Part shown: one piece after another, positions 7,204 to 29,079 of the stretch
Layout: the number at the start of each line of letters is the position of its first letter
Position numbering within the stretch: position 1 is the stretch's first letter
DNA from: a virus
Strand: one strand, 5' to 3'
IMG/VR virus record: IMGVR_UViG_3300017764_000064
Span: 1-29,079 of that record
Length of the DNA stretch: 29,079 nt
Notes under the pieces: generated by a model
What the model was told of the DNA's origin: nothing
The model's input: the letters and a program-made list of their open reading frames with translations, nothing else
The model's database searches: none
Position numbers and translations under genes: made by a program

Positions 7204-10200
7204 AAGGCTAATGCAAGTGTTCTTAAATCTTTAATTCTTGGTGGATATGCAGGATTAGTTCCCTTCATTACAATCTTTATTTGAAAAGAAGTAAATTCTG
7301 GTATTCCAGATTCACTAAATTTATATTCTGAAAAATCAGTTCTAAAGTCTGCATTATATGGCGACTGTGAACGATTTGAATTTGGTGGAGGAACAATATC
7401 TGCATTCAATTTTACATAAGGTATTTCTCCCATTCTTAAAGAATCCTCTGGAGATTTTACTTTTCTAAATACTTCAATTTCAGATTCTGGAGGAACTGAA
7501 GCTGAAAGTCTTACATCAAGAGCTGTAGAAGGATTGTTTAAAACAATTTCTTTTGTTAAATATTTTGCAAGAGCACTTCCACCTTGTGCATTTGTTTCTG
7601 GTACAAATTGGTCATCTAAAAATGCAGTAATAGATTTACTATTAGTTAATGTTATTGAAGATGTAAATGTTATACTACTTTCACTTGAAGAAGTTGAAAT
7701 AGTAAATGCAGTTGTAATATTACCATCAAAGGTAACTGTTAAAAGTTCTTCTTCACTAGCAGTCAATATTCTATCTAAAGTATATGTTGTTGCCGGTGTA
7801 CCAGAAGAAGCAGTTGTTGTATCTAATACTTTATTTGCAGTAAGATTGTTTATTCTATTGTTTACAGCAAGAACAGCCACTTGATTTAAATCTAAAACTG
7901 GACTAGTATTCTCATCAAATGTTGTCATAGAAATTCTATAAACAAATGATTTAGTATTATTTAGGTATGTAGTCTCATTAATTGCAGATAAAATAGACCT
8001 ATTAGAAGTATAATAATAACTTTCATTTGGAATCAATGTTCTAAATGATGTATCAAAAGTATATGGTGTTTCAGAGCCTTGGGGAGAACGTGCTGATGTA
8101 GTTTTTACACTATGATTTAATTTTCCAGTATCATAAGTCATTTGACCAATGACAGGCCTAATTAATTGGAAATTATTTTCTCTTGTTGCTGTTATATTAG
8201 AACCACCCACTCTTCCAGATGCAGTTGCAGCTGCACTGTTTTTTGCAGAAATAGTATAAGAATCTGCTGTTACATTACTAATATCAAAAGTTCCTTCTAA
8301 ATTTGTAGAAGCAATACCATTGTATGTATTTGAAGCAACATTTGCAATTGTAACTTTACTTGGAGATGCAAAATTCATTCCATGATTTTTATGATGCACT
8401 CTTACAATATTTGGATTAAATCCAAACTTTGTTCCAGTACCTGCTGAACTACTTGTTTCAAATGGATTGTTATCTAAAGTATCAACAGGAATTACTGTAT
8501 TTTGAAGGTCAATATTTCCAGTTGTGGCTGTTGTAAATTTTGCTTTATATATGGTAAATTTCAAATCTTCATATTGGTCTTCTGTCCATACAGAAGCATT
8601 CTGTGACCTAAACAACGAACCTAGTAATGGTTGCTGAGTAATTCTTTGTGTTGTTCCTAATTGATTTTGACCCAATCTTGAAACCCAAGCTTCATAATCT
8701 GTATTATCTGGTTTTAACACAATTGAATATTCTTTATTCGGCATCAAATAAATTGGACTAGGAAATGTTACAGTTGTAACTGCTGATGCATCTTCAGAAA
8801 CATTTACTTGAGAAGATTCCAATGTTACAGAACTAAAAGGAACTTTAGCCTTTGTAGGTCTACCACCATTTGTTGGCGTCATATAAATTTCAATTGGAAG
8901 TGTATCATGTTTCTTTTTAAAATACAAATCAATTTTAGTAACAAAGGAACCAGATGCATCACCAGGCTGACCATTTAAGAATGTTTGTGCAAGTGGATCT
9001 CTGTTTCTAACTGGCGGTGGAGGAGGTGGCCAAAGAAATCTATTTATACCAGCAAGATTACCAGCATTATTCTGTATATTATCTCTATTTTGATTTATAT
9101 TAGTAGAATTATCTCTTACTCTTTGAGATAAATTATCTATCAACCCTTGTTGTGTTTCATTAGTTTCTTCTAAGTTGGTTATAGATTCTATAATACCATC
9201 TGCTGATGCATTCACACTAATATTATCAATAGTAGTTCTAGTATCAGTTTCTGTGACTGAAGTTTTATTTATTTGTGGAACTCTTGTGGATTGCACAGTT
9301 TCTTGTGTAGTAACTCTCAATCCTCTTGCAGTATAAGTTGCATCAGCAAAAGTTTCTACTTCATCATCAGTTAAAGATGTTCCAGTAGAATTTGCTGATG
9401 AACTAGTTAATCTAAATACTCTGTCACCTGTTCTAAACTTAGGATTACCAGAAGCATTTGGGTCTGGAATAGTAAATGTTCCTGTGAGCTTTCCAGATGC
9501 ATCTGTTGTTCCAACTCCTACTGTAGTATTATCAGTTGTTACTCCAGAAACAGTACAGAATGATGAAACTGGTTCTTCATCAAAGAATGCAAACAATCTT
9601 GTATTAGGTTTCATTCTTGTTGCAGTAAAAGTAAGTGTTCTAGTACGCATGAATGAAGCTAAACTAATATCAACAACTCTTTCACCAAAACTTTGTTGTT
9701 GAGTTGTAAACCCTCCAAGAGTTCTACCAGTTCCAGCTCTTGTTCTAGTTTCAGTGCTTCTTTGAATAGTGGTTTCTACTTCTACATCGCCTGGAGATAT
9801 TTGTGTATCATTTGTTGTTCCGAAATCTGTTGTCTCCCAGCCATTCCAAACTGTGCCTAGATTGCCCTGACTATCACCTAACTGTGTCACAGTATCAAAT
9901 AAAGCATCATTAGTAACATTTAAAGTTTCTCTTTGTGTTTGATCTCTCCAATCATCCAAATCTGGGTCAAGTTCAATTGCACCCACATATTGAAAAACTA
10001 AAAACGGATTACAGTTAACAGCTTTAGATGCAAATAAATTTTGTGCTAAATTTGCATGAGTATATGGAAGAGTAATTAGTTTACCTGTTTTTTGATAACC
10101 ATTAGATGTTCTAGTAGAATCTGTAGTATTAATTTCTTCTAGCTCAACAAATTTTTCAGCAAAAGGCGGTCTAAGTTCTCCCTCCGTCATATCTATTGAG

Positions 10201-19607: not shown

Positions 19608-21548
19608 TTAATAAGAAGATGAAGAAGAACTAGAACTTGAGCTCGATGATGAAGTGGTTCCTGTTATATAATTTCTTACATCAACAATAGAGTTCGCAAA
19701 AAGGTCGCCTTGTGTAATATTTAAAGTTGAAAATAAACCTGAGAATGAACTTTGTGCTGTTGTTTGTTCAAAATTATCCACAATTCCAGATACAATAAGA
19801 TTAGATAAATCAATTGTAATAACTTGTTCTCTTGTAGGAACAACATCGTTTGAATTAGGTATAGCTAAAATTCTAATAGTTCCATCAGTATTAGAAACTG
19901 ATGTAATATTTACAGAAGATATAACAAGTTTTCCAGTTAAGTAATCTACTGTTCCAAACAAACTGTTCGTATATGTTTTAGTTGTTCCAACTAAATTATA
20001 TAATCTAAGATTTCCTTTACCATCATCATCTATATAATGGTCTATAGTTGAGCCTGTGACTTTAAAAGGTGTGGATGTTATTACAGAAGTGTGCCCTTCG
20101 TGTGGATTAAATAACGCATTATGAAAATTAATTGTATATGACTGAGCTGTAGACAAAGTTGGAGAAATAGAAGTTGACATATTTAATCTAATAACATTAG
20201 AAAGAATAGAATCATCACAGTTATCAATCAATCTGCTAACTTCTGAAAATCTAAACATCTTATCAAACATTTCTAAATCACTTACAACATAGCTTGTAAT
20301 TTTATCTTGCACCCCTTTAACTAATTGTGTAGAAGTTTTAGAAGTTAAGTTTTCATCATATCTAAAAACAACATCCATTAATACAGAAACTATTTTTGGG
20401 TCAACAATCACCGGCTGAGTTGAAATTACAGAATAATCTTTTAATGAATCAACTACAATTTGCTTTTGAGATTCAGTCAATCCCGTCCCACTAAAGGGTT
20501 TTACCCCTATATAAATTTTTCCATAGTTGGGAGGGTCATTATCTTCACCTCCCCAAACTTTTACTGATTGAGCATTAGCATAAACTTTTGGAACTAATGT
20601 TCTATAATCTTGTGCAGTAACTGCTCGATTTTGAGATGCATAATTTAAGGGAGCAAAATATTTTATAGATTCAATTGTTTCTGGAAATGCACCACCTGCT
20701 GCAGCAGCAACAGTTGAAACTGTAACATTTGTAACACCATCAACAGCTGTTGTGGTAAAATTGCTAGCACTATTTGGTTTCTCTTCATTACAAATAATAT
20801 ATTCTAATGTAACTATATTACCATCAGATAATTTTTTACCTATTACCCCATCACCAAAATATATTTCAAAAAAACCATCTTCTACTTCTTGTAAAAAATA
20901 AACTTCTGATATATCTGTAACTTGACTTATATCAGTTGCATGTTTATATGTTCTAATATTAGTATCAGTTGCTGATGTTTTAACGCTAACTGCTAGAGTT
21001 GTAGTATCAGCTAAGTTATCTGTTAATAAAAACTTTTGATTTATATTTTTAGTATTAACAACATATTCTGTTTTTATAGATGTTCCTTCATATATTAAAA
21101 TATTATTAAATGTTAATACTCCAGCATTTATATTAGTCGAATAATCTTGATTTGTTATAAACGCAAATGATTGACCGTCAATGTTTGTTTTAAAAACCTG
21201 ACCTTTTGACATTGATGCTGTTGTTTTTGTTGTATTATTCAATGTAACATTTACACTTGCAACAGCAGAGCGAGAAGACCTTGGAACGTAACCTAAAGCT
21301 TTAGACTGTGACACCACAGATGAGCGTAAAATTGCACTGTCCAAAAAAGATTCATTGACAGCCATGTTTAAATTATATGCTAAATAATGTGTGTTGTAAG
21401 CCAAGGTATCTAACAATATATTTAATCCAGAACCTTCAAAATTATAATCTGTAAAAGTATCTTGACCATTTAAAAATATTTTTAAATTGGTTTTTATGTC
21501 ATCAAAATCTAATTCTGTAACTCTTAATCTAGATGAATTAACTGCCAT
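19608..21548 (-). CDS. 6: Baseplate wedge protein gp6
   Basis: 646 residues, near T4 gp6 (660). The N-terminus 'SSRLRVTELDFDDIKTNLKIF' followed by 'FTDYNFEGSGLNILLDTLAYNTHYLAYNLNMAVNE' and 'AILRSSVVSQSKALGYVPRSSRSA' is diagnostic of gp6/J-like wedge proteins of marine T4-like phages. 'SIKYFAPLNYASQNRAVTAQDY' in the centre is the conserved baseplate_J core. Two gp6 chains form the iris of each wedge that opens on contraction. The C-terminus is a run of 13 serines followed by Tyr, encoded with mixed TCA, TCG, TCT, AGC and AGT codons. The start lies 2 bases after the gp25 stop, with AAGAG about 10 bases upstream, so gp25 and gp6 are coupled. Confidence 0.94.
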   Translation of the reverse strand: MAVNSSRLRVTELDFDDIKTNLKIFLNGQDTFTDYNFEGSGLNILLDTLAYNTHYLAYNLNMAVNESFLDSAILRSSVVSQSKALGYVPRSSRSAVASVNVTLNNTTKTTASMSKGQVFKTNIDGQSFAFITNQDYSTNINAGVLTFNNILIYEGTSIKTEYVVNTKNINQKFLLTDNLADTTTLAVSVKTSATDTNIRTYKHATDISQVTDISEVYFLQEVEDGFFEIYFGDGVIGKKLSDGNIVTLEYIICNEEKPNSASNFTTTAVDGVTNVTVSTVAAAAGGAFPETIESIKYFAPLNYASQNRAVTAQDYRTLVPKVYANAQSVKVWGGEDNDPPNYGKIYIGVKPFSGTGLTESQKQIVVDSLKDYSVISTQPVIVDPKIVSVLMDVVFRYDENLTSKTSTQLVKGVQDKITSYVVSDLEMFDKMFRFSEVSRLIDNCDDSILSNVIRLNMSTSISPTLSTAQSYTINFHNALFNPHEGHTSVITSTPFKVTGSTIDHYIDDDGKGNLRLYNLVGTTKTYTNSLFGTVDYLTGKLVISSVNITSVSNTDGTIRILAIPNSNDVVPTREQVITIDLSNLIVSGIVDNFEQTTAQSSFSGLFSTLNITQGDLFANSIVDVRNYITGTTSSSSSSSSSSSSSY

Positions 21549-25383: not shown

Positions 25384-26013
25384 CTATTCATCCTTATGAT
25401 TTAAAAAACTTCTACCCATAACTAAATAATCTGCACCATGTTCAATTGCATATTCTGGTGTGGAAACTCTAATTTGATCTTGAGAATTAAATACATCATG
25501 TCTTATGCCCGGACATATTTTTTTCAATCCATGAGAATCCGGCACATCTTTTTCTAGCAATATTAAATCTTTAGGTGAACATATCATTCCCCAAAAATTA
25601 TATTTTTTCATTATCCAGCTGGATCTTTTATAAACATTAAAAATACTTTGCTGAAAAACAGACCGCACATCATTATGTGACCAACTAGTTAAAAAAGTAA
25701 CACCAAGTAGTTTTATCTTGTCTGCATACTGAGATATTGCTTCAATTGAATCTGCACTATTACTCATGTGAACTGTTATCATTTCAGCTCCAGAATCAAT
25801 AGCACTTTCAATAACAGAACACATTGTATTTGGTATGTCGAACAATTTATAATCACAGAATATTTTATTATATTCTTTACCAATATAAGGATATAATGTA
25901 TGGTTCATTTTAAACCCATACACTTGATTGCAGTATCTTGCAATAATATCTCTTGCCATAGGAGCTGACATATTATCAAGTGCAACTATAATTTTAGATT
26001 CATAATCTTTCAT
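25384..26013 (-). CDS. pyrF: Orotidine 5'-phosphate decarboxylase
   Basis: 209 residues, slightly shorter than typical bacterial enzymes (about 230-245). It converts OMP to UMP, the last step of de novo pyrimidine synthesis. The catalytic layout is complete: 'IIVALD' with Asp13, 'GFKMN' with Lys35, 'FCDYKLFDIPNT' with Asp54-Lys56-Asp59, 'MITVHMS' at 78-84, 'CPGIRHD' at 167-173, 'DQIRVSTPEYA' at 179-189 with the phosphate-contacting Gln, and 'GADYLVMGRSF' at 193-203. The start overlaps the mazG-like stop (ATGA), and the next gene starts immediately after its stop. It would raise UTP/CTP/dTTP supply during AT-rich genome replication. A viral metabolic gene with intact active site; not a remnant. 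Confidence 0.93.
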   Translation of the reverse strand: MKDYESKIIVALDNMSAPMARDIIARYCNQVYGFKMNHTLYPYIGKEYNKIFCDYKLFDIPNTMCSVIESAIDSGAEMITVHMSNSADSIEAISQYADKIKLLGVTFLTSWSHNDVRSVFQQSIFNVYKRSSWIMKKYNFWGMICSPKDLILLEKDVPDSHGLKKICPGIRHDVFNSQDQIRVSTPEYAIEHGADYLVMGRSFLNHKDE

Positions 26014-27722: not shown

Positions 27723-28793
27723 CTATCTTAGTTTGTCAATTATTTTTGGAAGTAACTGATGAGAATCAGTTGCAATCTTTACTGGAAACTTAAAGTTATT
27801 TCTTCTGATTACTTCTTCCAATGAAGGAAGCTCATAGTCATCAATGGTAAAGTATGCATCATCTGGGTCACCAGAAAAATGCATGATAAAATCTTCTTCC
27901 ATATGGTCTTCAATATAGACTGCAACAATTTCAAAGTTGCCCATCACAAGCTCATCATAAGAATCTGCAACAGAATTCCAACTACTGCTTTGCTTCCTTG
28001 CCCAACCTATGTACATCTTTGCAAACACATCCTTGTGTTTCTTTAAAATCTTTTCTGTACCGTCAATATATTTCTTGATAAAATCTCTTTTAATGCTTCC
28101 ATTTACCAGAGGAGAAGAAGTGTCTATTGCACGCTCAACATATTTCTTTTCATCACCAATACTCTTTTTTCCCAATGCAACAAGATTGTTGATAATTGAT
28201 TTTCTGAATGTTAGCAAGTCCATCCACATTTTTTTGTATGCAGAACTTCTTACAACATCGTCATAGTCATATGCAAATGCAAGTTCGCTCTTCGGCCCAA
28301 GGTCTACTAGTCTTCTTCCTTGCTTGTCTACGATGCTCATGATGTCTGTGCTGCCTCCTGCATAGACATTTCCTTTAAGAATCGAATAGACACCTCCACC
28401 TCCATGCACACCGGATGTCATTCTTCCTTCTTCATCTGTAGTATATACAGAAACTTGCTTGCTTTTCTTACTCTGCAACTTCATCAAATTCTCAAGGTTC
28501 TCTGGACTGCTTGCATGTATTCCATAGGTCACCACTGAACCTACTACACGCTCAATCATTGCCGGAACCAGAGGAAGCTGATATCGAAAATCATCATCTG
28601 GAATTAGATAATACATTTTGTCTGCTTCTGGATTGTCACCTTTCAATGCTGCAAAAACTGATTTCTTTAAAAAGAAGTCATTGATTTCTTTATAAGGCAA
28701 CGTAAACAAATGGTCAAAAAGGCTGCGAGTCCATTTAACCTTTTCAGACAAAACAAAATTATTATTATATTCCCAGAAGCTATGCATGTTCAT
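27723..28793 (-). CDS. Unrecognised 356-residue phage protein
   Basis: The start is ATG at 28793 (MNMHSFWEYNNNF) because AGAGGA lies 5 bases upstream and a late box just beyond. The frame is open further but runs into the divergent gene. No signal peptide or TM is evident. Residues about 95-165 contain 'TYGIHASSPENLENLMKLQS', 'VSVYTTDEEGR', 'GVHGGGGVYSILKGNVYAGG', 'DIMSIVDKQGRRLVDLG'. I recall a similar pattern in hypothetical proteins of several large phages, without a known function. The C-terminal third is Lys/Asp-rich with 'FEIVAVYIEDHMEEDF'. Composition looks less AT-rich than the tail genes. It is head to head with the SbmA-like gene, sharing its control region. Confidence 0.7.
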   Translation of the reverse strand: MNMHSFWEYNNNFVLSEKVKWTRSLFDHLFTLPYKEINDFFLKKSVFAALKGDNPEADKMYYLIPDDDFRYQLPLVPAMIERVVGSVVTYGIHASSPENLENLMKLQSKKSKQVSVYTTDEEGRMTSGVHGGGGVYSILKGNVYAGGSTDIMSIVDKQGRRLVDLGPKSELAFAYDYDDVVRSSAYKKMWMDLLTFRKSIINNLVALGKKSIGDEKKYVERAIDTSSPLVNGSIKRDFIKKYIDGTEKILKKHKDVFAKMYIGWARKQSSSWNSVADSYDELVMGNFEIVAVYIEDHMEEDFIMHFSGDPDDAYFTIDDYELPSLEEVIRRNNFKFPVKIATDSHQLLPKIIDKLR

Positions 28794-28809: not shown

Positions 28810-28817
28810 TATTTATA
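28810..28817 (-). promoter_or_regulatory. T4-type late promoter box, leftward half of a two-way promoter
   Basis: An exact TATAAATA on the minus strand ends 17 bases before the ATG at 28793. It overlaps the rightward box by four bases; together they form the perfect palindrome TATTTATAAATA (28810-28821). Confidence 0.7.
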
Positions 28818-28821
28818 AATA
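28814..28821 (+). promoter_or_regulatory. T4-type late promoter box, rightward half of a two-way promoter
   Basis: An exact TATAAATA on the plus strand lies 31 bases before the ATG at 28853 of the SbmA-like gene, with AAGG between. It shares the TATA centre with the leftward box. Confidence 0.7.
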
Positions 28822-28852
28822 GTGAATCCCCTATAAAATAAAAAAAGGCAAC

Positions 28853-29079
28853 ATGTTTCGATTCTTTCTTGACTATAAAAAATACGGATGGTGGAGCATC
28901 CTTGGTACATTGATTATCATTGCCGCCATGTGGAGCACCGTACAACTTGATGTACGGATTAATGAATGGTTTGGTGCATTCTATGATGCACTACAGAAAG
29001 CACTGACTACACCAGGCTCAGTGACTCTGACGGAATACTATGGATACATGCTGGACTTTGGATACCTTGCAGGAATCTA
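28853..29079 (+). CDS. sbmA: SbmA/BacA-like peptide transporter, partial (N-terminal 75 residues)
   Basis: This is the only plus-strand gene, cut by the right edge. The product starts MFRFFLDYKKYGWWSILGT. Residues about 13-31 are a membrane helix. 'WWSILGT', 'VQLDVRINEWFGAFYDALQK' and 'ALTTPGSVTLTEYY' align with the conserved core of SbmA/BacA ('YWSILGT', 'V.VAVNAWY.PFYDLIQ', 'ALS.P..VT..QFY'). That family comprises proton-driven inner-membrane dimers that import antimicrobial and other peptides. Compared with E. coli SbmA, roughly 80-90 N-terminal residues, including the first membrane segment(s), are missing upstream of 'WSILGT'. The start is fixed by AAGG 6-7 bases upstream. An ABC exporter of the YddA type is less likely given the 'AL..P..VT' segment. 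GC is about 42% over 28861-29079 by hand count, above most neighbouring tail genes. Confidence 0.82.
   Translation, partial: MFRFFLDYKKYGWWSILGTLIIIAAMWSTVQLDVRINEWFGAFYDALQKALTTPGSVTLTEYYGYMLDFGYLAGI

Follow-up and report, generated by a model that had tools for sequence, protein, structure and literature searches.

A T4-like phage fragment ends in an sbmA-type gene

What is a gene for an SbmA/BacA-type importer doing at the end of a T4-like phage fragment, and is it complete, functional and of use during infection? Microcins and proline-rich peptides enter cells through SbmA, and the natural substrate of SbmA/BacA in free-living bacteria is unsettled. The window (i.e. the whole stretch of DNA that was analysed) is a linear IMG/VR fragment of 29,079 bases in which an sbmA-type frame runs off the right end. 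Four of its features were central to the assignment of the gene and of the virus:

28853..29079, + strand: 5' end of an sbmA/bacA-like (SLiPT) gene, 75 codons, cut by the contig edge (translation and PF05992 match)
28845..28848, + strand: AAGG, a probable ribosome-binding site located 4 nt upstream of the ATG (inferred from sequence)
27723..28793, - strand: divergent neighbour encoding a protein of ~356 aa, family unassigned, with a promoter region in common with sbmA (ORF list)
19608..21548, - strand: T4-like baseplate wedge gp6 (profile and phage protein matches)

Translation of positions 28853-29077 yielded MFRFFLDYKKYGWWSILGTLIIIAAMWSTVQLDVRINEWFGAFYDALQKALTTPGSVTLTEYYGYMLDFGYLAGI, which contains all three of the family motifs that the first-pass annotation had placed soon after the Met at 28853. 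PF05992 matched residues 9-74 of this 75-residue piece with 71 bits (cut-off 24) and an E-value of 1e-19, a score so far above the cut-off that the match did not arise by chance. The gene had also been described as the sole opposite-strand gene of the window, and it was indeed the only credible gene on the + strand, all other + strand ORFs lying inside - strand genes. The remaining genes, on the - strand, make up a T4-like myovirus module for baseplate and tail (i.e. gp5-type hub/lysozyme, gp6, gp8-type and wedge proteins). The nearest relatives of the gp6 protein were those of Methylophilales phage Melnitz (51%) and of the Pelagibacter phages Mosig (48%) and HTVC008M (46%). Judged by these similarities, gp6 places the window virus near Melnitz and HTVC008M, both of which are classified in the Kyanoviridae. 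The divergent 356-aa neighbour had no match in Pfam, PHROG or INPHARED, and an Rfam scan of the window found no riboswitch or other RNA clues.

The complete gene encodes a short SbmA-type transporter

Three contigs (L002, L003 and L004) exhibited 99.9% identity to the window over 8.4-10.2 kb, and all contained the 327-aa frame in full, with no stop codon inside it, ruling out a truncated fragment with early stops. The complete gene was read as follows:

L002:10001-10984: complete sbmA gene, 984 nt / 327 aa (frame in a near-identical contig)

The full protein was compared with PF05992 and PF06472, as the first-pass annotation had proposed. PF05992 matched with 427.9 bits (cut-off 24; E 4e-128) over profile positions 2-313 of 315, whereas PF06472 gave only a weak match. 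NF009036 scored 403.2 bits (equivalog cut-off 385) over positions 1-321 of 326, and NF008306, the E. coli SbmA equivalog, scored 397.2 bits, which is below its cut-off of 492. The best PDB sequence match was E. coli SbmA (E 4e-93), and the ABC importer structure 6tqe matched weakly (E 1e-8). An AlphaFold (AF2) monomer model built from 47 relatives (pLDDT 86.6) was aligned by Foldseek to inward-facing-occluded SbmA (9g3g) with a TM score of 0.90 at 1.7 A and exhibited the TM1-6 core fold. An ABC exporter with a fused ATPase was ruled out, the protein having 327 aa and no ABC_tran domain. The full-length PF05992 match, the SbmA-like modelled fold and the absence of an ATPase domain bear out the initial reading of a phage-borne SbmA/BacA-like transporter. 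The best annotated viral structure matches in BFVD were distant ABC transporters with 9-12% identity, indicating that there is no SLiPT among those viral proteins.

The N-terminus of the phage protein had been described as shortened. As compared to E. coli SbmA this is correct, since the phage protein begins at about SbmA residue 73, retaining the transport core and lacking the peripheral TM0a/TM0b helices, for which a scaffold function has been proposed (PMC13316013). The short form is not, however, peculiar to phages: apart from two sequences truncated at the edge of a contig, the 80 top-scoring bacterial proteins (from SAR11, Rhodospirillaceae, Litorivicinaceae and others) begin at about the same position as the phage protein. 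A sample of Gammaproteobacteria contained frames of the short type (about 323-366 aa) as well as of the long type (about 419-495 aa); NF009036 is a 326-aa family of the short form, and PF05992 itself begins at about residue 9 of the phage protein. The short bacterial relatives and NF009036 indicate that the length of the phage protein is an ordinary bacterial variant and that the TM0 domain, also absent from the closest bacterial relatives, marks a long subgroup only. A phage-specific N-terminal shortening was thereby ruled out.

The glutamate ladder is conserved and the gene is under purifying selection

SbmA is proton-driven through a 'glutamate ladder' (E193, E203, E269, E276, E287 and E378) with a central gate at Y368 (PMC13316013). 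The equivalent phage positions (E122, E132, E198, E205, E216 and E307) were Glu in all 25 aligned phage rows, L002 included, and the gate position Y297 (equivalent to SbmA Y368) was Tyr in 21 rows and Phe in four. In the YddA outgroup, four of the six ladder sites (i.e. the E203, E269, E287 and E378 positions) had residues other than Glu. We infer from homology proton coupling, dimerisation and a peptide import direction for the phage protein. Pairwise dN/dS values between phage copies were 0.02-0.18, and phage sbmA is selectively maintained by purifying selection. Being intact, phage-encoded, of host type and subject to purifying selection, the gene has the features of a phage auxiliary gene, and in all likelihood its product is a working TM0-less SLiPT that serves auxiliary uptake.

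Phage lineages appear to have acquired sbmA several times

Relatives were encoded by at least 239 IMG/VR contigs, some of which may be cellular fragments. In 14 records, one of 376 kb, sbmA was found on one contig with T4 gp23 and/or terminase. A tree of bacterial and phage copies, also proposed at the outset, was constructed with 68 rows and scattered the phage rows among several clades. About five label changes were needed for the phage rows, at least three of them forced by strongly supported branches, with caution being due to several long branches in this tree. A single phage origin was not supported, and the topology suggests that phage lineages acquired sbmA several times. The window clade joined HIMB30/Litorivicinaceae and a Burkholderiaceae MAG (100/100), and a second phage clade joined another Litorivicinaceae type (100/100). 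GC content was near 0.49 for the HIMB30 locus, 0.33 for the window and 0.43 for phage sbmA, a pattern that is consistent with capture and falls short of proof.

No genuine phage with sbmA was found in INPHARED, the four matches being host chromosome or short unannotated fragments. CAKLQH020000002.1 ('Acinetobacter phage') was rejected because of its chromosomal neighbours (i.e. gatA, gatB and threonine dehydratase), and OR850887.1 and OR845400.1 (Salmonella and Escherichia records) were rejected as short, unannotated, host-DNA-like fragments; the Salmonella record contains an SbmA of the enterobacterial-type long form. A search of open-licence papers for phage- or virus-encoded SbmA or peptide transporters, or for phage BMP proteins, returned no relevant report. 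SbmA/BacA is an established family, and no record of marine T4-like phages repeatedly carrying it was found in INPHARED, BFVD or the open-licence literature.

Uptake and nucleotide genes accompany sbmA in related phages

The genes surrounding sbmA were examined in related contigs. In sister phages the distance between sbmA and gp32 is often no more than about 2.5 kb. One subclade (L015, L016, L018, L019, L021-L023 and L032) has sbmA followed by a gene for a BMP/PnrA-type nucleoside-binding protein, which in L019 and L021-L023 begins about 8-12 bases after the sbmA stop, and then, in contigs that extend far enough, by a 2OG-Fe(II) oxygenase gene. An NCS2 purine permease gene is located upstream of sbmA in L010-L014, most of which add a second permease-like protein. 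Adenylosuccinate synthetase (PurA) is encoded by L024 and L029, and L024 also carries RPE, RpiB and PyrF. None of these accompanying genes was found around the 80 bacterial sbmA genes, for which up to 5 kb was read. The company of uptake and nucleotide genes in relatives favours a role in nutrient uptake and gives a weak hint that nucleosides or compounds containing them are involved. An obligatory association of sbmA with the nucleoside-binding protein was ruled out, as only 12 of 80 phage BMP loci had sbmA within 10 kb and BMP plus oxygenase was the commoner pair. In the window species the stretch read around sbmA contained no directly flanking nutrient gene, the pyrF gene being 2.8 kb away:

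25384-26013, - strand: orotidine 5'-phosphate decarboxylase, pyrF, among the tail genes (PF00215, E 7e-30)

Several further observations were made on these contigs. Relatives of pyrF are also found near sbmA in L019, L024 and L029, and the window pyrF had only distant (<30%) matches in INPHARED. In L024 (8660-13846), RpiB, sbmA, ribulose-phosphate 3-epimerase and adenylosuccinate synthetase form a cluster for sugar-phosphate and purine synthesis. The BMP/PnrA-type protein has 432 relatives in IMG/VR, often paired with the 2OG-Fe(II) oxygenase (L015-L032 and L213-L289), and only distant matches among INPHARED phages. Tryptophan-halogenase-like flavoproteins recur in sbmA-bearing phage contigs (L008, L025, L030, L056, L079 and L082). 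The T4-like contig L031 contains an Alphaproteobacterial-type permuted tmRNA (8193-8520) adjoining a tRNA-synthetase-like gene and an NCS2 purine permease gene; the terms tmRNA and permuted also occur in the Melnitz paper (PMC9004378).

A late-type promoter may be particular to the window species

Control by a late-type box, as claimed for sbmA by the first-pass annotation, was assessed by a motif scan of the window, which gave the following in the 59-base gap between sbmA and the divergent 356-aa gene:

28814-28821 (+ strand) and 28810-28817 (- strand): T4-type late-like boxes TATAAATA
28810..28821, both strands: TATTTATAAATA palindrome, giving a late-promoter-like box TATAAATA on each strand

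Palindromes of the TATTTATAAATA type were expected at 0.03 per shuffled window. Five of the eight TATAAATA sites of the window lie no more than 60 bases upstream of a same-strand gene start, a zone that makes up 2.8% of positions (binomial P 9e-7, a figure that is somewhat generous owing to AT-rich gaps). The box at 28814-28821 is present and correctly placed, and late control of the window sbmA is plausible; the box is not specific to sbmA, as the palindrome serves both divergent genes. No late box was found upstream of any of the 25 other phage sbmA copies examined, indicating that 'late' may apply to the window species only. Good sigma-70-like promoters preceded sbmA in L010, L056 and L057, and in other phages the gene looks to be expressed early or to be read with its neighbours.

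Two sbmA alleles alternate at one Litorivicinaceae site

In Litorivicinaceae, sbmA occupies one chromosomal site with a conserved hypothetical gene on one side and an SDR gene on the other. This same site was observed to hold either of two alleles that are about 50% identical (L083, L084, L198-L205 and L207-L210). Trees of the flanking genes, based on a small sample, need 2-3 switches between these alleles, each of which has its own T4-like phage relatives. A third sbmA type (L195-L197) did not have the hypothetical/SDR flanks in the stretches read. A tentative and rather doubtful suggestion is that phages serve as an sbmA exchange pool, driving in-place replacement of an importer that is attacked by peptide toxins or phages.

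The phage transporter probably feeds the infected cell

The probable explanation for these data is that the gene encodes a functional TM0-less SLiPT, derived from a bacterium and serving as an auxiliary importer of nutrients in the form of peptides or organic solutes of a similar kind. The carrier would be a marine T4-like phage, a relative of Melnitz and HTVC008M, with sbmA as an auxiliary gene from a presumed donor of the Litorivicinaceae type, the clade observed in the tree. During infection the SbmA-type protein would be placed in the host inner membrane, and the peptides or comparable bulky organic solutes thereby taken up in larger amounts would feed phage synthesis, a step suggested by the BMP protein, the purine and other permeases, PurA, PyrF, RPE and RpiB in relatives. 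For the window species the promoter predicts late-phase expression.

The phage copy might instead replace or top up host SbmA after host gene shut-off, bringing in no added nutrient. This is unlikely, even though 15 of 25 genomes of Litorivicinaceae, the nearest bacterial clade, possess a chromosomal equivalent and the host protein shares its ladder residues and 73% identity with that of the phage: the other ten genomes, which may be incomplete, have no copy, and sbmA clusters with other acquisition genes in relatives. An altered permeability of the infected cell to antimicrobial peptides, bacteriocins or rival phages late in infection is a distinctly improbable role. The known function of SbmA as a gate for microcins and proline-rich peptides, the late-type box of the window species and the swapping of divergent host alleles at one locus, as expected for a gate under attack, would all agree with it, but an extra importer normally raises sensitivity and does not protect, the box is absent from the other phage copies checked and the neighbouring genes in relatives point to nutrition. 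We consider it very unlikely that sbmA is host DNA of recent capture with no role in the phage; its position at the contig end of the window with no conserved phage partner would fit, yet intact frames in multiple phage clades, contigs shared with gp23 and terminase and the purifying selection seen disfavour a passenger. It is barely credible that the protein is a YddA-like ABC membrane half with a separately encoded ATPase, as, despite the weak PF06472 match and the existence of YddA genes in split form (PMC13316013), the glutamate ladder is complete, PF05992 is far stronger than PF06472, the YddA outgroup is set apart from the sbmA clade at 100/100 and the sbmA-bearing phage records (incomplete contigs) had only weak short matches to an ABC ATPase (NBD) gene, none of them credible.

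Ocean phages appear to have captured this importer more than once and have kept it strongly conserved, in some of them near nucleoside- and purine-uptake genes, which indicates that it pays off during infection and offers a new handle on the natural substrate of SbmA/BacA.

Comparison with known transporters

The phage protein resembles E. coli SbmA (PDB 7p34 and 9g3g; a SLiPT) in its core fold, with about 47-48% core identity, and in possessing the full set of six ladder glutamates and the tyrosine position of the central gate; it differs in lacking the ~73-residue N-terminal TM0a/TM0b domain and in scoring below the NF008306 cut-off. Members of the short 'putative transporter' family NF009036/PRK12369 (i.e. 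the short SbmA of SAR11 and Litorivicinaceae) are alike in length, start and full-profile match, the closest exhibiting 61-75% identity, whereas the present gene is phage-borne, in a genome of ~33% GC and among other neighbours. The ABC importers YddA/BclA and Rv1819c have a homologous membrane core but, unlike the phage protein, possess fused ATPase domains and incomplete glutamate ladders. Cyanophage pstS is a phage auxiliary gene for nutrient uptake and likewise encodes a host-type uptake protein on a marine T4-like phage. Unlike pstS, the present gene would encode, by homology, a secondary peptide transporter and is absent from genuine phage records in INPHARED; a proton-driven importer would thereby join the short list of uptake genes by which phages feed infected cells.
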